Assembly: GCF_013362815.1 (NCBI RefSeq)
Contig: NZ_JABFVK010000087.1
Coordinates: 1 to 64,000, forward strand
Direction of reading: 5' to 3'
Length of the DNA: 64,000 nucleotides
Origin: Hamadaea sp.
GTDB taxonomy: Bacteria > Actinomycetota > Actinomycetes > Mycobacteriales > Micromonosporaceae
A model generated the notes under the pieces. That model worked only from the letters and a program-made list of their open reading frames with translations. It was not told the origin of the DNA and did no database searches. Positions 5,992-57,117 of the stretch are shown here, in pieces (the stretch's first letter is position 1; each line of letters begins with the position of its first letter). The position numbers and the translations under genes were made by a program.

Positions 5992-6000
5992 CCCCTTCGC

Positions 6001-6062
6001 GTTGATCATGAACCTAAGGTCCGCCTCGTCGGCGTGTCGGACCACCGAACCTCATGATCAAC
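6001..6062. repeat. Dispersed inverted repeat, family B, copy 1
   Basis: A 62-bp element with outer arms GTTGATCATGA / TCATGATCAAC and an inner GGTCCG/CGGACC pair. It fills the gap between the convergent 3' ends of guaA (9 bp away) and the NUDIX gene (6 bp away). Related copies are at 27054-27114 and 35548-35609. There is no T-run beside it, so a terminator role is possible but not shown. Confidence 0.8.
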
Positions 6063-6068
6063 TGACGA

Positions 6069-7064
6069 CTACAGGCCTGCGGCTTTGAGGGCGTCCGCGG
6101 TGACTTCGGTCATCTCATCCTCCGTGAGGGCCTCGACTTCGTCCTTGGGGAGCCAGTAGGCACCGGAGGTCGAGCCGCCTTTGTCATGAACGCGGGGCTG
6201 AGTGGCCCTCTCGACGGTGACTCGGTAGAAGGCGCGTACGCCGTGCCAGTCGATCGGGAAGCCTTCGGGCCCCAGCGACGCCGGATCACGGTGGCTGGCC
6301 ACGCCCAGGAGCCCGCCCAGCCGCCCGGCCTGCCCGGTCTCCTCGAGCAGTTCCCGGATCAGCGCGTGCGCCGGCTGCTCGCCGAAGTCCGTGCCGCCGC
6401 CGGGTAGGTGCCAGCGCCCCTCGCCGGGGTACCCGGGGGAGACCCGGGTCAGCAGCACCCGGTCGAGCCGGTCGGTCGCCACCGCGTACGCCGCGAAGCG
6501 CTGCGTGCGGTGCAACCCGTCGTTACCTTCCTCGATATGGAAGCTGGGGAAGTCGGGGATCTCGTCGGGCCGCAGGTCCACCTCGGCGGCCGGTACGCCG
6601 AGCGCGTCAGCGGTGAACGGGCGCAGCAACAACTGCCCGGCTTCGTCGAGCGGAACCCAGCGGACTAGGTCGGTCGCCTGATCGTGCCTTTCCCGGAGGG
6701 CACCCCCGCGGATTCGACCCGAATAGATGAGCCGATCGGTGTGAATCGTGACGCCGCGGTGCGGCAGGGCGCGCAGGTCGGCGAGGACGTCGCGGAGCCC
6801 GGTCAGGGAGATCGACAAGCCGGTCTCGGCCGCCGTCTCCCGGATCGCCGTGTCGTTGGGGTGCTCACCGTGGTCGACGGCGCCACCGGGGAGGGACCAG
6901 ACGCCGGGCGTGCCCGACCGGTCGGAGTTGCGGACCAGGAGGATCTCCTGCCGTCCGGGATGTGCCGCATCCTCGCGGCTCACCACGGCGTACGCGGCGA
7001 TCCGGCGTACCGGAGCAAGCCGGTCGCCGGCTCCGTCAAGGGAGAGCTCGACGTCGGTAGTCAC
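6069..7064 (-). CDS. Tandem NUDIX hydrolase (two NUDIX domains)
   Basis: The 331-residue protein carries two NUDIX domains. The first box (GGAVDHGEHPNDTAIRETAAE, about residues 60-82) has Ala in place of the first Glu of the REuxEE core. The second box (GGGTDFGEQPAHALIRELLEE, about residues 222-243) keeps the RExxEE metal ligands. NUDIX enzymes hydrolyse nucleoside diphosphates linked to another moiety; the substrate is unknown. It is transcribed divergently from a paralogue with the same double-domain layout that starts 151 bp away. The N-terminal domain may have lost activity and kept a binding or structural role (inference). Confidence 0.88.
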   Translation of the reverse strand: MTTDVELSLDGAGDRLAPVRRIAAYAVVSREDAAHPGRQEILLVRNSDRSGTPGVWSLPGGAVDHGEHPNDTAIRETAAETGLSISLTGLRDVLADLRALPHRGVTIHTDRLIYSGRIRGGALRERHDQATDLVRWVPLDEAGQLLLRPFTADALGVPAAEVDLRPDEIPDFPSFHIEEGNDGLHRTQRFAAYAVATDRLDRVLLTRVSPGYPGEGRWHLPGGGTDFGEQPAHALIRELLEETGQAGRLGGLLGVASHRDPASLGPEGFPIDWHGVRAFYRVTVERATQPRVHDKGGSTSGAYWLPKDEVEALTEDEMTEVTADALKAAGL

Positions 7065-10649: not shown

Positions 10650-10947
10650 GAGTTGACTCCACCTTCGTCATCGGCGCGTACGGGCCTCAGCATATGCGCC
10701 GGGGCCGACACGCGCTCACGGCGCTCGCTCTCGCGTAGCGGCCGCCCTTGGCGCTCCGGCGCTCGCCCCGGGGCGCTGCCTTTAGCGCTGGATCAGGGTT
10801 CCGGGTCGAATCTTCCCCCAAGATTCGACCGAGAACCCTGATCCGCCGGTACGGCGTGGACGTCGCCGCACGGGTCGGGCCGGGAAGCCGGCAGGGCGCC
10901 GGGACCCCCATCCCGACGCCCTGCCCATCCCCCCTTGGGATTCGCGG
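10650..10947. other. Intergenic region with family A palindrome
   Basis: 298 bp between psd and the small membrane protein gene, both transcribed leftward. I see no gene. Its main content is the family A palindrome at 10790-10844. The right-hand part (10845-10947) is GC-rich with no recognised signal. Confidence 0.6.
10790..10844. repeat. Family A palindrome, copy 1
   Basis: GGATCAGGGTTCCGGGTCG pairs with a right arm that has one run of mismatches (CGACCGAGAACCCTGATCC); the centre is AATCTTCCCCCAAGATT. The left flank CGCTGG is kept but the matching right flank has become CCGCCG. It is intergenic, downstream of the leftward small membrane protein gene. Confidence 0.92.
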
Positions 10948-19802: not shown

Positions 19803-19858
19803 GTGCGTCAAGATCCGTGCGTCAAGATCCGTGCGCCGAGATCCGTGCCCCAAGATCA
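19803..19858. repeat. Tandem 14-bp repeat, four copies
   Basis: Four head-to-tail copies of GTGCGTCAAGATCC (19803, 19817, 19831, 19845), the last two diverged. They lie in the 297-bp gap between pcrA and folD. The AAGATC word recurs further right (GATCTTG twice at 19924-19945, reverse orientation). Confidence 0.85.
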
Positions 19859-19870
19859 TCGCAGGACGCC

Positions 19871-19930
19871 GGATAATGCGGCTATTCGAGCGCAGATAAC
19901 CGCGTTATCCCGGGATAACGCGGTGATCTT
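19871..19930. repeat. Dispersed inverted repeat, family C, copy 1
   Basis: A ~60-bp element centred on a perfect 26-bp palindrome (19899-19924, core GCGTTATCCCGGGATAACGC), with further degenerate half-sites (GGATAATGCGG, GATAACCGCG). It aligns in direct orientation with 41844-41902. It sits 40 bp beyond the stop of folD, so it could also stop transcription of the converging pcrA and folD genes, although no T-run follows. Confidence 0.8.
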
Positions 19931-27019: not shown

Positions 27020-27053
27020 CGCGTTGCGTCTCACTTCCGCGTCTCACTTCCGC

Positions 27054-27114
27054 GTTGATCATGAACCTAAGGTTCCGCTACGGTCTTCTGCGGAACCATA
27101 GGTTCATGATCAAC
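27054..27114. repeat. Dispersed inverted repeat, family B, copy 2
   Basis: The best-preserved copy of family B: a 25-bp stem with a single mismatch (outer arm GTTGATCATGAACCTA), loop of 11 nt. It ends 15 bp before the stop of purH, in the convergent gap between the ABC operon and purH. Confidence 0.9.
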
Positions 27115-27129
27115 GGGGCTCAACGCCTG

Positions 27130-35367: not shown

Positions 35368-35547
35368 TGCCCGACGGGCATCTTGGACGCCAGGGTCCTC
35401 CGCGCTGCGAGCGGGTCGCTTGATCCCTGCGTGGGTAACTCCCCATTCCGGCTGACGTGGTTGCGGCCGGGCGGAAACGCAAAAGGTAGGCGAGTCCGGG
35501 CGCTGGCAGCGGGGAAGTGGGCGCTGTCGCTGTTAGGGGCTGGTTGC

Positions 35548-35609
35548 GTTGATCATGAACTTAGGGTTCCCTTTGGCGGCGTGTCGGTGCCCCTAGGTAC
35601 GTGATCGAC
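35548..35609. repeat. Dispersed inverted repeat, family B, copy 3
   Basis: A diverged copy: GTTGATCATGAACTTAGGG at the left and CCCCTAGGTACGTGATCGAC at the right, with a GC-rich centre. It ends 23 bp before the stop of the leftward B12-binding protein gene. Confidence 0.75.
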
Positions 35610-35632
35610 CGGCGACCGGCGCTGCGGCCTCG

Positions 35633-41761: not shown

Positions 41762-41832
41762 GGCGGGTAGCGCGTTGTTGCGGGCAGCGCGTTTGTGGCG
41801 GGTAGCGCGTTTGTGGCGGGTAGCGCGCTTGC
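41762..41832. repeat. Tandem ~18-bp repeat, four copies
   Basis: Units GGCGGGTAGCGCGTTTGT and variants at 41762, 41780 (17 bp), 41797 and 41815. They fill part of the 458-bp non-coding gap between icd and the S51-like gene and run directly into the family C repeat. Further right, AGCGAGCG-type short repeats (41923-41960) continue the low-complexity stretch. Confidence 0.85.
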
Positions 41833-41843
41833 GCGTTATCCCG

Positions 41844-41902
41844 GGACAACGCGGTTATTCGAGCTCGCAAGGCCGCGTTATCCCGGATAACGCGATGATC
41901 AT
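41844..41902. repeat. Dispersed inverted repeat, family C, copy 2
   Basis: Aligns in the same orientation with 19871-19930. It contains GGTTATTCGAGC and the interrupted palindrome GCGTTATCCCGGATAACGC, one base shorter at the centre than copy 1. It is intergenic. Confidence 0.75.
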
Positions 41903-42032
41903 GCAGCCGAGCGCCGGCCGAGCGCCGAGCGAGCGGGCGAGCAAGCGAGCGAGCGAGCCCGCGGGGCGAGGCGGAACAAGTGACGAGAAAAGGGGCACGC
42001 CCGTTCCCGGACGCGCCCTTTAGCGAGCGGTG

Positions 42033-45987: not shown

Positions 45988-46018
45988 CCAACATACACCC
46001 CCACTGCGGAGCAGCGCT

Positions 46019-46072
46019 GGATCAGGGTTCTGGGTCGAATCTTGGCGCGAATACGACCCAGAACCCTGATCC
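46019..46072. repeat. Family A palindrome, copy 2
   Basis: A perfect 19-bp stem GGATCAGGGTTCTGGGTCG / CGACCCAGAACCCTGATCC around AATCTTGGCGCGAATA. The left flank CGCTGG is kept, the right flank is lost. It lies between the DeoR-type gene and the 3' end of the GT2 gene. Confidence 0.95.
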
Positions 46073-46074
46073 GG

Positions 46075-46129
46075 CGGAAGGCCGGCGGAAGGCCGGCGGA
46101 AGGCCAGCGGAAGGCCAGCGGAAGGCCAG
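46075..46129. repeat. 11-bp minisatellite, five copies
   Basis: CGGAAGGCCGG repeated five times without a gap (units 3-5 read CGGAAGGCCAG). It starts 2 bp after the family A palindrome and ends 9 bp before the GT2 stop codon. Copy number is likely to vary between strains. Confidence 0.95.
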
Positions 46130-46138
46130 CGCAGAAAA

Positions 46139-48961: not shown

Positions 48962-49026
48962 GCGCTGGATCAGGGTTCTGGGTCGAATCTTGCGCCTTGA
49001 TTCGACCCAGAACCCTGATCCAGCGC
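48962..49026. repeat. Family A palindrome, copy 3 (perfect)
   Basis: The reference copy: a perfect 28-bp stem starting GCGCTGGATCAGGGTTCTGG with a 9-nt loop TTGCGCCTT. It lies between the convergent stops of the WecB-type and DUF559 genes (32 and 17 bp away). Apart from its outermost bases it is identical to the copy at 50016. Confidence 0.97.
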
Positions 49027-49955: not shown

Positions 49956-50015
49956 CAGCCGACCGTTGCAGTCGGGATGGTGAGATCACAACGCCTGTGG
50001 ATAACCCGCCACAGT

Positions 50016-50072
50016 TGGATCAGGGTTCTGGGTCGAATCTTGCGCCTTGATTCGACCCAGAACCCTGATCCA
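50016..50072. repeat. Family A palindrome, copy 4 (perfect)
   Basis: A perfect 24-bp stem (TGGATCAGGGTTCTGGGTCG at the left) around the same 9-nt loop as copy 3. It begins 61 bp upstream of the DUF559 start and ends 8 bp before the stop of the leftward GH26-like gene, so it may also act at the end of the polysaccharide operon. Confidence 0.97.
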
Positions 50073-50080
50073 GCGCCAAA

Positions 50081-51055
50081 CTAGTGGGGGGTGAGCGAGG
50101 TGAACGAGGAGCGGAAGGCGGCGAACGCCGCAGCGTCGTTCACCAGCCGGAATCGCCCGTTCTCCCCGTTGCCGTCGGGATCGGATTCGAAGTAGGCCAC
50201 CGCCTTGATCTGCGGCCAGCTCTGCACGAAGGCAGCGGCGTCGGAAAGCCAGCGAACCCGCGTCGGCGGACCCCAACTGCGGGCGACGCCGAATTCCCCG
50301 ACGACGATGGGCTTCGGGCGTTGGGCGGCCCAGAGGAGGAACGGGGCGAGGAGGTCTCGCAGCGACGCGTACTTGCTTCCGGCGTACGCGTCGACGCAGA
50401 TCCAGTCCACCGTGTCGTCGCCGGGGTAGAAGGCGGCTGCCCGGCCGGCGGCGAAACCTTCCGCGGTCGGGCACCACACCCAGGCGACGTTGCGTACGCC
50501 TTCTTCAGCGAACACCGCTCGAATGTGCCGCCAGGCGGCGATGTAGTCCTCGGGGCTCCACATCGTGGCGGCCAGGTTCGGCCGGTCCATCTCCCAGCGG
50601 ACGCGAAGCAGCACCGGATCGCCGAAGCGGCGGAGCTCGGCGGCCCGCGTACGCAGGACCCGGTCGGCGTGCCCGAGGGTGATCGAGCGGGTGTCGCCGG
50701 TGGCCCAGCTGAGCATGAGCGTGCTGCCCTTGCGGCCGAGCTGGCGGTCGCTGAAGGTGTCGAACGGCTCGTCGATCCGCCGGTATGTGTTGACGATCCG
50801 CAGGCGGCTGCCGAGCGACTCCTCGTACTGGCGTACCGCCGCGATCCGGCCGGCCTGGGTGAGCTGAGGCGGCCGGACCCACGCGCCCAGCCAGGCACCG
50901 GTGATCGGCGGGGTCACCGCGCCCCCGGTGAAGGGACCGGCGTTCGGCCGGACGTCGTCCAATCGGGACGGCGTCGGCGTGGGCTTCTGCGGTGGCGGCG
51001 AGCAGGCAGTCAAGGCCAGTAGCCCGACCGCCACCGTGGCTAGAAAGCGCCTCAC
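50081..51055 (-). CDS. GH26-like glycoside hydrolase lipoprotein
   Basis: A 324-residue lipoprotein (lipobox LTAC, Cys18) with a GH26-type barrel. The probable acid/base is Glu155 in VRWEMDRPN and the nucleophile Glu254 in VVGEFGVAR; VDAYAG lies between. GH26 enzymes cleave beta-mannan and related glycans, so this one may trim or release the exported polysaccharide, but activity is only inferred. GTG 51055 overlaps the stop of the methyltransferase (GTGA). The long frame reaching further upstream is antiphase to that gene. It is the last gene of the seven-gene leftward operon. Confidence 0.87.
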   Translation of the reverse strand: MRRFLATVAVGLLALTACSPPPQKPTPTPSRLDDVRPNAGPFTGGAVTPPITGAWLGAWVRPPQLTQAGRIAAVRQYEESLGSRLRIVNTYRRIDEPFDTFSDRQLGRKGSTLMLSWATGDTRSITLGHADRVLRTRAAELRRFGDPVLLRVRWEMDRPNLAATMWSPEDYIAAWRHIRAVFAEEGVRNVAWVWCPTAEGFAAGRAAAFYPGDDTVDWICVDAYAGSKYASLRDLLAPFLLWAAQRPKPIVVGEFGVARSWGPPTRVRWLSDAAAFVQSWPQIKAVAYFESDPDGNGENGRFRLVNDAAAFAAFRSSFTSLTPH

Positions 51056-52005: not shown

Positions 52006-53544
52006 TCAGACCCGCCGGCTCAATGGGGTCAGGGGCAGGCGGCGGCGCAGCAGCACCACCCCCAGCAGGTACGCGACCGCCCCGGCTCCGATGGCCAGCC
52101 AAGGCGGGGACGCGTGCAGCGCGGCCGGCACCGCGCCGAAGCTGACGGCGGTCAGCAGCGCGGCGGCGAGGGTGTCGCCGCCGAAGGGGTGCAGCCGCAT
52201 CGAGACCACGATCTGGGCGAGGGGCAGCAGGTTGTTCACGGCGACCGCGCAGGCCAGCCCGATGGCGGCCCCAGCGATGCCGAGCGCCGGGATGAGGAGG
52301 AGATCCGCGGCGACCATCGCGGTCAGGGCCGCGAGAACGTTGACGAGGTTCCAGACGGTGCGCCCGCCCATGGCGAGCACCATGTCGACCATGCCGCAGC
52401 CGGTGGCCAGCAGCATTGCGAGGGCGAGAACGCGTACCACCGGAACGGCTTGCCGGTAGTGCGCGCCGAACAGGCCCAGGTAGTCACCGGCGTACTGAAG
52501 GACGGTGAGGTGCAAGGGCCAGCTCGTGAGGATGAGCCAGCCGGTCGCCGTCTGGTACAGCCGCCGGGCGGTGGGCAGGTCCCCGACCGCGAGCGCCTCC
52601 GCGAGCCGCGGCTGCACCGCCTGCGAGATCGCGCCGTTGGCGAGCTGGCCGACGACGACGAACCGCCCCGCGACCGAGTACGCCGCCGCCGGAGCGAGCC
52701 CGGCGAGCGCGGCGACCAGCAGCACATCGATGCGTTGGAGAGCGGTCTGGGCGACGTTCGCGAGGGCCCGGGGCGCGGTGAACCGCCAGAACCGCCACCC
52801 CATCCCGGCGTCTTCCGAGCGCTGGATCACGGATCTCGGTCGAATCTTGCGCCAAGATTCGACCCGGAACCCTGATCCAGCGCGGAAAGCGCGCCAGAGG
52901 AGGTAGCCGGCGGCGACGCAGACCGGCAGGAACGGCGCGGCCCAGGCGACGGCCCACACCGCGACCGGCGCGCCGACCAGGAACACCGCGGCCAGCAGGA
53001 TCAGTTGCAGCGCCGGCCGGGTGATCTTCTCGAGCAGTACGGTCGGGCGCATCTGCCGATAGCCGCGGGTCGCGGCCAGCAAAGCGTCGGCGAGCGCGGC
53101 GAGCGGCAGGAAGAACGCCAGCGCGCGTAGGGGATCGGCGTACTCGGGGGTCACGATCGGCGCGAGCCAGTAGGTGACCAGGGTGAGTGCCAGCCCGGCG
53201 AGGAACACGGGCGGCAGCGAGACCCGGAGGCACGCGCCGATCAGTTCCGGTGTGGACAGTGCGCGCAGCCGGGCCGGCCAGTACACCAGCCCGGTCACGG
53301 TGCCCAGTCGCGCCACGCCGCCCACCAGGGTGAACGCGGCGGTGGCGGCGAAGAACGAACCCGCCTGCTCGGCTCCGAGCCCGCGCGCGACCAGCCAGGT
53401 CACTCCGAGGCCCGCGACTCCGGCCAGGCCCGCGCCCAGCAGGTTCGCGACGCCGCCGCGCGCGGTGGAGGCCAGCGCGTCGCCGCGGGAGACGACTTCC
53501 CGATGCGGCGGCGGCTGGATACGTGTCGGGTTCTCCGTGGTCAT
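52006..53544 (-). CDS. Wzx/MATE-type polysaccharide flippase containing an in-frame palindrome
   Basis: A 512-residue membrane protein with about 12-14 helices, of the polysaccharide transporter (MOP) type that flips lipid-linked repeat units. It begins with a cytoplasmic tail and GGVANLLGAGLAGVAGLGVTWLVARGLG. Between the sixth and seventh helices the loop AGSGFRVESWRKIRPRSVIQ is encoded by a family A palindrome (52819-52883). The following FWRFTAPRALANVAQTALQR resumes family sequence. ATG 53544 overlaps the sulfotransferase stop by 4 bp (ATGA). The reading frame is intact, so the element adds a hydrophilic loop rather than breaking the gene. Confidence 0.9.
   Translation of the reverse strand: MTTENPTRIQPPPHREVVSRGDALASTARGGVANLLGAGLAGVAGLGVTWLVARGLGAEQAGSFFAATAAFTLVGGVARLGTVTGLVYWPARLRALSTPELIGACLRVSLPPVFLAGLALTLVTYWLAPIVTPEYADPLRALAFFLPLAALADALLAATRGYRQMRPTVLLEKITRPALQLILLAAVFLVGAPVAVWAVAWAAPFLPVCVAAGYLLWRAFRAGSGFRVESWRKIRPRSVIQRSEDAGMGWRFWRFTAPRALANVAQTALQRIDVLLVAALAGLAPAAAYSVAGRFVVVGQLANGAISQAVQPRLAEALAVGDLPTARRLYQTATGWLILTSWPLHLTVLQYAGDYLGLFGAHYRQAVPVVRVLALAMLLATGCGMVDMVLAMGGRTVWNLVNVLAALTAMVAADLLLIPALGIAGAAIGLACAVAVNNLLPLAQIVVSMRLHPFGGDTLAAALLTAVSFGAVPAALHASPPWLAIGAGAVAYLLGVVLLRRRLPLTPLSRRV
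52819..52883. repeat. Family A palindrome, copy 5, inside the flippase gene
   Basis: Left arm GCGCTGGATCACGGATCTCG and right arm ending CGGAACCCTGATCCAGCGC pair at 27 of 31 positions, centre GCGC-type. Read on the gene strand it encodes A-G-S-G-F-R-V-E-S-W-R-K-I-R-P-R-S-V-I-Q-R. Core length CGCTGG to CCAGCG is 63 bp, a multiple of three. Confidence 0.95.
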
Positions 53545-54413
53545 TGTCGCCAGGCAGGCGTACGCCCAAGCCAGGCGGTCAAGGCCGCATCGTGCGGAGC
53601 GAAGTGCACGCGGAGCTCCGCGCGGATCTCGTCGGGCAGCTCGGTCTCCCGGGGCCGGGCGTTGTGCTGTTCGAACTCGGGGAAGCCGAGGTGCGGCAGG
53701 CCGAGGAAGTCCTGCACCCGCTCGTAGACGGTCTTCGGGTCGGTGAAGAACTCCTCCGCCTCCTGGACGAGGATGTTGTCCCGGCCGAGCTGATGCGCCA
53801 TCTGCTCCAGCGCGATGGCGTATTCGCCCCGGGCCCGGTACGCGTGGTGCTGGTGGGCGAACGAGTACGCGAACGGGTCGGCGGTCAGCCGGGCCTGCTG
53901 ACCCCGCAGCCGGCTCGGTTCCAGGGCGAGCGCGCGGGCGAAGTCGGCTTCCAGCTCGAAGCCCCGGGCGACTTCGTGGGCGTGCTGCGAGTACGCCCGC
54001 TCGACCGGATCCCGCACGAGCACGATCGCGCGTACGCCGGGCAGGTCGCGGGCGATCCGGGCGGCCGCATGCGGGTGGTAGAGGTAGTAAGGGCTGGACT
54101 CGAAGGTCTGCCCCGGATAGCCGTGCTCTTCGAGTAGCTTCTCGGCGGCCCGGCGCAGCGGGAAGTGGGCGCGATACCAGTCCGGCCCGCGGTGGTAGTT
54201 GGTGTCGAAGTAGTGCACGCCCTTGTGCAGCACCGCCTTGAGCACCAGGGGATGCTGCGAGAGCGCCCGGTAGAGCGAGGTGGTTCCGCAGCGCTGCCCG
54301 CCGCAGATGAGGAACGAGGGCAGCATGCGCGAACCGGCGGTGAGCCGGCCGAACGAACGCGATCCGGCGTGGATGATCCGCTTGACGGGTTCGGGGACGG
54401 TACTGGAGTTCAC
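53541..54413 (-). CDS. Sulfotransferase (PAPS-dependent)
   Basis: A 290-residue sulfotransferase of the heparan/NodH-like type: phosphosulfate loop FLICGGQRCGTTSLYRAL (about residues 34-51), the 3'-phosphate region AIVLVRDPVERAYSQ, and the conserved HPLVLKAVLHKGVHYFD segment. GTG 54413 overlaps the upstream APH-like stop (GTGA); the longer upstream frame is antiphase. It is the second sulfotransferase of the locus and sits within the main operon, next to the flippase, so it likely sulfates the lipid-linked or growing glycan. Confidence 0.9.
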   Translation of the reverse strand: MNSSTVPEPVKRIIHAGSRSFGRLTAGSRMLPSFLICGGQRCGTTSLYRALSQHPLVLKAVLHKGVHYFDTNYHRGPDWYRAHFPLRRAAEKLLEEHGYPGQTFESSPYYLYHPHAAARIARDLPGVRAIVLVRDPVERAYSQHAHEVARGFELEADFARALALEPSRLRGQQARLTADPFAYSFAHQHHAYRARGEYAIALEQMAHQLGRDNILVQEAEEFFTDPKTVYERVQDFLGLPHLGFPEFEQHNARPRETELPDEIRAELRVHFAPHDAALTAWLGRTPAWRQ

Positions 54414-55690
54414 GTCAGCCTCCGGACGCGGTCGATGAGCACGGGCAGCAGCCAGGTGCCGAGGACACCGAGGCGCGCACCCGCCTCGGCCTGGCGGTCG
54501 GCCAGATAGCGGGCGGCGAGGTCCACGAGGTAGAGCAGGGCGGTGACTTCGCGCCCGTCGGGGACCACGTCGAACGGATCGAGCAATGTGGACGCCTGGG
54601 CGACGACGTCCGCCACACAGCCCCGAGCGTCCGCGTCTTGCTGAATCCGGCGCTGCAGCTCGTAATGAAGCGCGTCGAAGCCCATCGGCACGCCCGGCGT
54701 GAACCTTTCCCAGTCCCACACCAGGAGATCAGGGTCGGTCTCGCCGGTGCCGCCAGGGGCGGCTTCCGTGCCGCCGCGAACACAAGCCATGTTCCAGGGG
54801 GCCCAGTCCCCGTGCCACGCGCCGTAGCTCAGCGGCACGTCACCGCTTCGGTCGATCAAGGTCCGCGCGGCGTCCAGCAACGGCGCGCCGTCGGCGTGGT
54901 CGGCCACCTGCACGAGGCGGTTGCGCAGGTCGGCCCAGTACGGGCTGGTGGCCAGCCAGCCCCGGGTGGTGCCCACCGCCCGGGCCACCTCCAGCATCGC
55001 CGTGGTCAGTCTTTCCGGAGCCAGTGGTACGCGAGGACGCCAGATCGGCAGCGCGGACTGCACGAGCACTTGATGGCCGTGCCACTGTCCGGTGTGGAGG
55101 ACGCGGGGGACGGCGACTTCCTTGAGGTCGATGTGCGACAACGCGGTCAACGCCGCGGTCTCGGCCCGGACGAGCCGACGCGTCAGCGGTCCCGTGCCCA
55201 GCTTGGCGAAGCCGAACGTACGCCCGGTCGGCGTGAGCAGTTGCAGGACCGGCTTCCGGTTGGCCCTCGCCGGTCCGATGTGGATACTGATGCTCAGCGG
55301 GGCCTGAAGGTGCTGCTCCAGGTAGCTGTCGATGGAGTCGGCCCCGGGCGACGGTGCGTTGATGCGTACGCGATCACGCAGGAGTGCGGGCCACGCCCCG
55401 GTCCGCAACGCCGCCACGACGGCGTCCCGTTTGAGCTTGGCGAGCCGGGTCTGCGGCTCGGCGAACCGGCGTACGGCGGCGGCGGCGACCCGCCGGGACC
55501 CCATCGGGATCAGCAGCTTCGGCCGTCGCGCATGGGGAACGACGAGATACTCCGCCACCCGGTCCGGCCCGTCGCCGGTGAGCGAACAGGGCGCGGGATA
55601 GAGCAGATCGAGGACTTCGGCGAGGTACTGATGGCGTAGTTGTGCGTCGGCGGCGGTCAGTTGGGCGGGAGCAGTGGTCACCGGACTCAT
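54410..55690 (-). CDS. APH-fold phosphotransferase-like protein
   Basis: A 426-residue protein with an N-terminal ~130-residue region of unknown fold and a C-terminal aminoglycoside-phosphotransferase-like kinase fold: FGFAKLGTGPLTRRLVRAE holds the likely ATP-Lys, YGAWHGDWAPWNM the catalytic loop (His-Gly-Asp), and LLVWDWERFTPG the metal Asp. Substrate unknown; it may phosphorylate a sugar or other small molecule used in glycan assembly. It overlaps its neighbours by 4 bp on both sides, so it is fully embedded in the polysaccharide operon. Confidence 0.8.
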   Translation of the reverse strand: MSPVTTAPAQLTAADAQLRHQYLAEVLDLLYPAPCSLTGDGPDRVAEYLVVPHARRPKLLIPMGSRRVAAAAVRRFAEPQTRLAKLKRDAVVAALRTGAWPALLRDRVRINAPSPGADSIDSYLEQHLQAPLSISIHIGPARANRKPVLQLLTPTGRTFGFAKLGTGPLTRRLVRAETAALTALSHIDLKEVAVPRVLHTGQWHGHQVLVQSALPIWRPRVPLAPERLTTAMLEVARAVGTTRGWLATSPYWADLRNRLVQVADHADGAPLLDAARTLIDRSGDVPLSYGAWHGDWAPWNMACVRGGTEAAPGGTGETDPDLLVWDWERFTPGVPMGFDALHYELQRRIQQDADARGCVADVVAQASTLLDPFDVVPDGREVTALLYLVDLAARYLADRQAEAGARLGVLGTWLLPVLIDRVRRLT

Positions 55691-57117
55691 GCGACACCCC
55701 GATCAGAGTTCGTCTTCGGGAGGTTTGCGCGCCAGAGCAGCGCGTACGCCAGGAAGGTGAAGGCGAGCGGGGTGACCAGCGAGTTGTACCAGAACATCGC
55801 GACGAAGGTCCCCACGATCGCGGCCTGGCCCGCGATCCCGATCGGCGTGCGGTCGCGGCGGAACCGCCACAGGCCGTAGCCGAAGAAGCCCAGATAGCCG
55901 ACGGTGCCGACCGCGCCGTGCGCGAACAGCAGTTGCCAGAATTGGCCGTTGCCGCCGACGGTGAAATTGCCGCAGCGTTCACAGCCGGCGCTCTCGCCGA
56001 CTGCGATGGACTGCCGGCCGCCGAGCGTGTTGCGGGTCGAACCGAACCCGACCAGCGGCGACTGGTGGAATCCGTCCAGCGCCCGCTCGGTGAGATACAG
56101 GCGTACGCCGTTGGACTTCCCGTTCTCGAGGCGCTTGTTGACGACGTCCCCCAGGGGCGTCACCGCGAGTACGCCGGCCAACGCTGCCGCTGCGCCCGCC
56201 CCGGCCAGAAGCATGCCCAGGCGGCCCGACTGCGCCTGGCGTACCGCCACGTAGGCGAGAGTGACCCCGAGCCCGATCCAGAGCCCCCGATTGAGCGAGT
56301 GGACGACCGGAACGGCCGCGACCACCAGGAGTGCGAAGGCCGCGACCTTGACCCGGCGGGTGAGGGTGGCGCGGACCGCGACCACGAACCAGACGACGAG
56401 CAGGCAGAAGTTGTTGCCCCAGGTGTTGGTGTAACCCCACGGCGCGGCCGGGCGCGGCTGCGGGTCGCCGACGATGTCCATGATCTGCGCGGCGTAGGGA
56501 TGGACGAGCGACTTGATGAAGCCCTTGCCGCGCACGCCCGGGGGGAGTAGCAGTTCGACGGGCGAGGTGAAGCCGAAGTGGCCCGCGAACGTGCCCAGCA
56601 GGCCGCCCGCGACCGTGACCACGAAGAGCCAGGCCAGCAGCTTTACCAGGCGGGCTTGCGAGAGCGTGCCGGTCGGCAGGTTCCCGGCGTAGATCAGCAG
56701 GACCGTGAGCGCGACGTACTCGATTAGGCGGAACGCCACGCCGGTGATCCGTTCGGCCGCGCCTGCCACGACGACGCCGTCCGGATCGGAGCCGAGCACG
56801 GCGACGCCGATCACGACCGCGCCCAGGAAGACCAGCCAGAGCGGGAAGCCCGGGGGCAGCTTGATCCGCTCGCCACGGCGGTGCTTCTTCACGAGCTGAG
56901 CGACCATCGGCACCGCGAGAATCGGGAAGATCAGTACGCCGAGGCCGAGCGCCCACCAGACCGGGTAGAACGCCAGGAGCGCTACCAGCGGCCAGGGCCC
57001 CGGCGCTTTCGGCGCTGTTGCTTTGTGCGCTGGATCAGGGATCTCGGTCGAATCTTGACCCAAGATTCGACCTGGATCCCTGATCCAGCGTTCGCGCGAG
57101 ACGGGGGGAGCGGTCAC
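55687..57117 (-). CDS. O-antigen ligase/polymerase-like membrane protein with an N-terminal palindrome
   Basis: A 476-residue protein with about 11-12 helices and the Wzy_C/O-antigen ligase core (HSLNRGLWIGLGVTLAYVAV, then ERALDGFHQSPLVGFGSTRN with the family's His and Arg). It likely polymerises repeat units or ligates glycan outside the membrane. GTG 57117 overlaps the stop of the chain-length gene (GTGA). Nine residues after the start, a family A palindrome (57027-57090) encodes RWIRDPGRILGQDSTEIPDP in the cytoplasmic tail before the first helix. The long frame upstream is antiphase to the neighbouring gene. Confidence 0.88.
   Translation of the reverse strand: MTAPPVSRERWIRDPGRILGQDSTEIPDPAHKATAPKAPGPWPLVALLAFYPVWWALGLGVLIFPILAVPMVAQLVKKHRRGERIKLPPGFPLWLVFLGAVVIGVAVLGSDPDGVVVAGAAERITGVAFRLIEYVALTVLLIYAGNLPTGTLSQARLVKLLAWLFVVTVAGGLLGTFAGHFGFTSPVELLLPPGVRGKGFIKSLVHPYAAQIMDIVGDPQPRPAAPWGYTNTWGNNFCLLVVWFVVAVRATLTRRVKVAAFALLVVAAVPVVHSLNRGLWIGLGVTLAYVAVRQAQSGRLGMLLAGAGAAAALAGVLAVTPLGDVVNKRLENGKSNGVRLYLTERALDGFHQSPLVGFGSTRNTLGGRQSIAVGESAGCERCGNFTVGGNGQFWQLLFAHGAVGTVGYLGFFGYGLWRFRRDRTPIGIAGQAAIVGTFVAMFWYNSLVTPLAFTFLAYALLWRANLPKTNSDRGVA
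57027..57090. repeat. Family A palindrome, copy 6, inside the ligase gene
   Basis: CGCTGGATCAGGGATCTCGG on the left pairs with the right arm ending GGATCCCTGATCCAGCG; 28 of 30 positions pair. Compared with the reference copy, GGGTTC has become GGGATC in one arm and GAACCC has become GATCCC in the other, a compensatory change. Core 63 bp (57028-57090), read in a different frame from copy 5. Confidence 0.95.

Follow-up and report, generated by a model that had tools for sequence, protein, structure and literature searches.

A 64,000-nucleotide stretch of the Hamadaea sp. genome (contig NZ_JABFVK010000087.1, hereafter the window) carries six copies of a 65-bp palindrome, two of which lie in frame inside the genes for a polysaccharide flippase and an O-antigen-ligase-like protein. 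The palindrome belongs to a high-copy, genus-restricted palindromic repeat, termed family A, for which coding copies are the exceptions. Family A is mainly a hairpin found behind stop codons and is now and then tolerated by genes. The finding in the window is probably best understood as two coding copies of this dispersed Hamadaea repeat, spread and retained in the manner proposed below.

Six palindromes had been reported in the initial annotation, which was made from the sequence alone, and a repeat search and an nhmmer scan recover the same six, including the two that it had placed in frame within genes (Table 1). The palindromes are 65 bp in length, with the exception of a 64-bp copy at 46014, and consist of 31 nominal pairs about a 3-nt centre. 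The further statements that the 63-bp core leaves two of three frames free of stop codons, and that the flippase and ligase copies are read in different frames, also hold. By a rough estimate, two open frames out of three is near chance for a sequence of this length.

The structure of the family was defined from 44 copies selected for their close match to the ligase copy, which align without gaps to the 65-bp consensus GCGCTGGATCAGGGTTCYSGGTCGAATCTTGnnnCAAGATTCGACCSRGAACCCTGATCCAGCGC with a mean column identity of 92%. The consensus is symmetric (GCGCTGG...CCAGCGC) and has no conserved flank. Because the inverted repeat extends over the full element, the terminal inverted repeats characteristic of miniature inverted-repeat transposable elements are present. 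A 25-nt half-site pattern allowing at most two mismatches matches the genome 398 times (203 + 195), corresponding to roughly 200 copies, and the reversed pattern does not match at all; hence, the palindromes of the window are not products of chance. A covariance model returned at least 150 matches in the genome, mostly both-strand pairs of single palindromes. A curated RNA family was considered and rejected, as no match was obtained at the Rfam gathering threshold in five sources.

The host range of family A is narrow. Among 200 Micromonosporaceae genomes scanned, this genome (G000) included, half-sites are abundant in G000 (398) and in two congeners, G061 (a complete genome; 208) and G080 (taken to be the metagenome-assembled genome Hamadaea sp. 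Bin8.36; 381). None was detected in G039, taken to be H. tsunoensis DSM 44101, and the other 196 genomes yielded a single, chance-like match with two mismatches. A looser pattern restricted to the ends of the element (GATCASGG N28-38 CCSTGATC) extends further, with 325 matches in G000, 279 in G061, 273 in G080, and 182 in G039. It occurs in 93 of the 200 genomes, with a maximum of 28 matches outside Hamadaea and a reversed control of zero in all genomes but one. Among the matches listed, genuine palindromes that differ in their interiors account for most of those in G006, G097, and G105, and many lone matches in other genomes are not palindromic inside. The core delimited by GATCASGG...CCSTGATC measures 52-53 bp in 142 of 145 matches of the fetched loci, although 44-58 bp was permitted; two matches of 46 nt duplicate copies already in the count. 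The interiors are divided into type A (the present family), type B (GATCACGGWTAYGCATGC...), and type D, found in G039. B arms number 215 in G000, 352 in G061, 141 in G080, and four in G039. A long form of the element, spanning 101-103 bp in the copies measured and enclosing a conserved ~40-nt loop, occurs in two species (L009:1227-1329, L083:2644-2744, and L076 at ~1928-2023).

The genomic placement of family A was examined in 92 copies from the window and 79 loci, of which 38 were reached through the top-scoring BLAST hits obtained with the ligase copy, 40 through covariance-model or half-site listings, and one through the 200-genome scan; genes in the sampled loci were called with a codon-usage script. 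The copies are distributed between convergent genes (38), tandem genes (39), and divergent genes (6), with one copy at a contig edge, seven covered by open reading frames (ORFs), and the ligase copy. All 39 tandem intergenic copies are closer to the upstream stop codon than to the downstream start, with median distances of 16.5 nt from the stop and 89 nt from the following start (40 rows, the ligase copy included), and convergent copies lie a median of 21 nt from the stops. The same tendency is observed for non-A palindromes between tandem genes, which are closer to the upstream stop in all 12 cases in G061, seven of nine in G000, two of two in G039, and one of two in G080. Only four of the 92 copies are internal or N-terminal, all of them in frame, and outside the window these amount to two of 86 copies, in a subtilase and an AdnA-like helicase-nuclease. 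Four more overlap the C-terminal ends of ORFs (L024, L025, L143, and L151); three of these ORFs end in or directly behind the element, and the fourth, L025, which is a weak gene call, continues for eight residues. Because ~89% of the sampled sequence is assigned to coding regions (446,292 of 500,014 bases) and yet few copies are genic, insertions into genes must be mostly lost or were never made. The description of the element as a coding-tolerant mobile palindrome consequently stands only in part: genuine genes do carry copies in frame, but the family shows no special tolerance for coding sequence, and its mobility is a conclusion drawn from comparison.

A location behind stop codons would also be expected if the palindromes were selected 3'-end signals, acting as bidirectional terminators or mRNA-end hairpins, with the genic copies being accidental. 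The folding of the predicted RNA agrees with such a role, with the flippase and ligase copies lying 7 and 10 standard deviations below shuffled sequences and four examples spanning 7 to 12. Of the features that define an intrinsic terminator, the hairpin shortly behind the stop codon is present, but the U-tract is absent on both strands (of 352 positions in 44 copies, T occupies 35 on the downstream side and A 37 on the upstream side). In addition, 11 of 40 orthologous sites in G061 are devoid of such a palindrome, 10 of them lacking any palindrome that scores at least 12, and the copies resemble each other more closely than hairpin formation would require, as seen from the 92% identity of the 44 copies chosen as relatives of the ligase copy. 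Selection as a 3'-end signal is a plausible account, though not the one we would favor.

The four internal or N-terminal inserts are all missing from H. tsunoensis, including from its flippase orthologue (L060). In the flippase, the inserted peptide is AGSGFRVESWRKIRPRSVIQR. The AlphaFold model of this protein has a mean predicted local distance difference test (pLDDT) score of 88, and its lowest values away from the ends are those of residues 221-230 (58) and 231-240 (54), which places the insert in a predicted low-confidence loop between the flippase halves. This loop is a variable region, being 40 residues long in 40 of 66 sequences and 50 in G000. No long palindrome was detected within the flippase gene of 63 of 64 named loci (the partial L200 was excluded), 62 of them from other genera, at a score of at least 18 and a length of at least 46 bp, thresholds at which eroded palindromes would be missed. 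In G061, the same flippase site is occupied, in frame, by another palindrome of the superfamily, now eroded. The G080 contig that holds the flippase (C756, L059) starts inside the element; short-read assemblies may under-count genic copies.

The ligase copy occupies approximately codons 9-31 if translation starts at the GTG at 57117-57115. This start codon shares bases with the TGA that ends the preceding gene, an arrangement found alike in G000, G061, G080, and G039, even though G039 has no element; the insert is in the same frame in the first three. A CCTGG variant marks the ligase insert in these three species and is seen in three of the 44 aligned copies. The segment is probably translated in full.

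The subtilase (L148) has the insert GAGSGFSVESWGEIRPGTVIQR in its N-terminal region, read in the same frame as the flippase copy. In an alignment of eight of 10 loci (L198 and L199 excluded), G061 and G080 share the segment, which is missing from the four other genera examined. The UvrD/PDDEXK gene (L153) uses the other open frame, which it shares with the ligase (...IRD.GRI..QDSTE.PDPA). Its best solved relatives are 6ppj and 7sjr, listed as UvrD/REP helicases, which we take to be mycobacterial AdnA; L153 is hence labelled AdnA-like, and the gene likely encodes a double-strand-break helicase-nuclease. The solved relatives align to residues 13-279 and 394-1113, and the insert (~349-371) falls between. 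In an alignment of 18 of 20 fetched loci (L184 and L185 excluded), the element peptide occurs in none of 14 orthologues from other genera, in which the length of the linker varies, and G061 harbors a B-like palindrome at the same place and in frame.

Comparison of orthologous sites between congeners reveals considerable turnover. Concatenated flanks located 37 of 38 fetched loci in G061, and of 47 sites considered, 40 were comparable in this genome by paired flanks. These 40 sites hold an A palindrome in 11 cases (two of the long form), another, equally long palindrome of the superfamily in 16, and a C-type palindrome in one (the orthologue of L003); one site is ambiguous and 11 have none. The ambiguous site is L023, at which G000 itself has A and B copies 76 nt apart (2995 and 3071) in one intergenic space. 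Fifteen sites were comparable in G039, three with a D palindrome and 12 with none. In G061, 25 of 39 of these spaces are occupied versus 24 of 172 others (four of 20 among convergent spaces; Fisher test, 7e-10).

Sites occupied in both genomes by differing palindromes may have exchanged their interiors in place. The alternative, that such palindromes arrived by separate insertion events in the same short intervals that tolerate them, is unlikely to account for most of them. The free spaces behind genes are indeed short, other G061 spaces do hold elements at the rate given above, and L023 illustrates two types entering a single space. However, another palindrome is found at 16 of the 29 non-A sites against a base rate of 20% (binomial test, 3e-5). 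Independent insertion is least likely at the two coding sites, the flippase and the helicase, where the two palindrome types start within a few nucleotides of the same codon and the frame is kept. A bolder and tentative suggestion is that these genes contain coding slots, in which an in-frame 65-bp palindrome could be swapped whole for one of a like-length subfamily with the frame and rough dyad symmetry preserved. A loop of ~21 residues would thereby be exchanged between species, as between G000 and G061 in the flippase and the UvrD/PDDEXK helicase, and the repeats would spread independently of any Y1 transposase, possibly through cleavage of the hairpin followed by ectopic repair. The notion that the genic palindromes are native coding sequence, palindromic by accident, is rejected as extremely improbable: the reading frames of both genes do continue across the element and are conserved to either side of it, but the same DNA recurs at roughly 200 other places, the segment is missing from H. 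tsunoensis and other genera, and different genes use different frames.

The proposed spread of the dispersed repeat relies on copying of whole units. Among 75 A copies with a 53-bp core, 24 are equal-armed compared with 11.1 expected, and one unequal arm pair recurs 13 times; such non-random pairing fits copying of entire palindromes. Free reassortment of half-arms, hinted at by a lack of covariation, was rejected because arm pairs recur. From these recurrent pairs and the absence of the element from orthologues, we infer that family A is mobile. Units would be copied whole into many places by some machinery, and insertions that break genes or promoters would be lost. Copies behind stop codons would persist, as a hairpin there may be harmless or useful as a 3' end, and rare coding copies would persist where they are in frame and in a loop, linker, or terminus, such as the flippase inter-half loop, the ligase N-terminus, the subtilase N-terminal region, and the helicase linker. 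An occupied site would tend to keep a palindrome, the interior of which could give way to one from a different subfamily. Gene conversion from other copies, or their re-insertion, would be the simplest route, and the encoded peptide would then change wholesale with the frame retained.

Several observations weigh against this proposal. Column-by-column covariation between the arms is absent; the unequal arm pair noted above, with mismatches at two positions, would explain this. At 13 sites aligned with G061, neither a target-site duplication nor a clean empty site was readable, the flanks being degenerate, and the flanks of 90 copies are rich in GCGCT-type hexamers (141 versus 19 in the control). 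No mobilizing enzyme was found in a search limited to Y1_Tnp (PF01797), which is missing from all four Hamadaea genomes, one of them 87% complete, and present in five of 14 control genomes. Non-A tandem copies are closer to the downstream start in two of nine cases in G000 and one of two in G080, and the codon-usage gene caller placed the ligase start wrongly. Finally, possible ligase starts exist behind the element in G061 (ATG) and G080 (GTG), and a TTG lies inside it in G000.

Table 1. Coordinates of the family-A palindromes, the genes that carry them, and the inverted segment; positions refer to the window unless a locus is named.
Feature	Coordinates	Strand	Context or basis
Family-A palindrome	10785..10849	none	Intergenic; orthologous G061 site without palindrome
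Family-A palindrome (64 bp)	46014..46077	none	Intergenic; one boundary of inverted segment
Inverted segment	46078..48961	none	Orientation relative to flanks unlike G061, G039, and G080 (one flank covered); BLAST high-scoring segment pair orientations
Family-A palindrome	48962..49026	none	Between convergent genes; other boundary of inverted segment
Family-A palindrome	50012..50076	none	4 nt behind stop of 50081-50962(-)
Polysaccharide flippase, 512 aa	52006..53544	-	MatE above cut-off, Polysacc_synt below
Family-A palindrome	52819..52883	none	In frame within flippase gene, residues 222-242
O-antigen-ligase-like protein	55687..57117	-	Wzy_C below cut-off; proposed GTG start overlapping TGA of upstream gene
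Family-A palindrome	57027..57091	none	In frame at 5' end of ligase gene
UvrD/PDDEXK helicase-nuclease with palindrome	L153:270-3629	-	Domain and solved-structure matches

The window also contains evidence of rearrangement. The segment of ~2.9 kb between the copies at 46014 and 48962 is flipped in G061 and G039, and likewise in G080 relative to the single flank seen. An inversion with a palindrome at each boundary indicates that family-A copies probably also recombine. In the flank beside the copy at 46014, an 11-bp unit, GCGGAAGGCCA, which includes the end of the element, is repeated 5.3 times (46074-46131), and these repeats, together with the hexamer-rich flanks, suggest slippage at the hairpin base. 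Other repeats are present in the window. The C-type palindromes (GCGTTGATCATGAAC...) are located at 5999-6069, 27052-27116, and 35546-35616, two of the three between convergent genes, and a related pair with CGCGTTATCCCGGGA cores, at 19851-19922 and 41832-41903, lies between convergent genes in both cases.

Family A can be compared with several known systems, as described in the available portions of the respective publications. Structured repeats that are nearly confined to one group are exemplified by the pneumococcal BOX, RUP, and SPRITE elements, which are slow-moving, nearly confined to one species group, and likely to affect co-transcribed genes (PMC3049150). Family A resembles them in structure and restriction, a likeness by description only; SPRITE is listed as a rho-independent terminator-like element (PMC10969869), whereas family A has no U-tract. 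Rickettsia palindromic elements (RPEs) are ~150 bp in length, comprise several families per genome, and lie within ORFs in nearly half of cases (PMC10969869), and their sequences are reported to end in CGTC (PMC3733652). The parallel with Rickettsia drawn in the initial annotation is apt, as both are palindromic repeats tolerated in frame in unrelated genes and missing from orthologues. By description, family A is set apart from RPEs by its length of 65 bp, its low proportion of internal or N-terminal copies (four of 92), the lack of a CGTC end, and a different phylum.

Repetitive extragenic palindromic (REP) sequences of the GTAG and CGTC types have in-frame copies in uvr and recBCD genes and supply stop codons, and two Xanthomonas species differ in the REP carried at roughly one and the same position of recB (PMC3733652). 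REPs in frame within genes have therefore already been published for bacteria other than Rickettsia, although the available text of that paper contains no mention of actinobacteria, Streptomyces, or Micromonospora; no published description of family A was found in a literature search in which subscription journals were mostly uncovered. Family A shares with REPs the many extragenic hairpins, often at stop codons, and the occasional in-frame copy in a repair gene, and the recB difference in Xanthomonas parallels the UvrD/PDDEXK gene described here. In contrast, REPs are 20-40 bp long with a tetranucleotide tag at one end, while family A is a symmetric, untagged 65-bp element, and none of the four Hamadaea genomes has a Y1 transposase. 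Neither GTAG nor CGTC is present at either end of the family-A consensus, and membership in the system of REPs and REP-associated tyrosine transposases (RAYTs) was rejected on the grounds of the missing Y1_Tnp and tag. The Hamadaea congeners provide a test bed for hairpin movement without a known transposase, for the preference for sites behind stop codons, and for in-place peptide exchange; in addition, an inversion has a copy at each boundary, and copies lie at the ends of draft contigs. Family A behaves like RPEs and REPs, is a member of neither, and extends the occurrence of in-frame palindromic repeats from Rickettsia and some REP-bearing bacteria to a high-GC, free-living soil actinobacterium for which insert-free orthologues are available.

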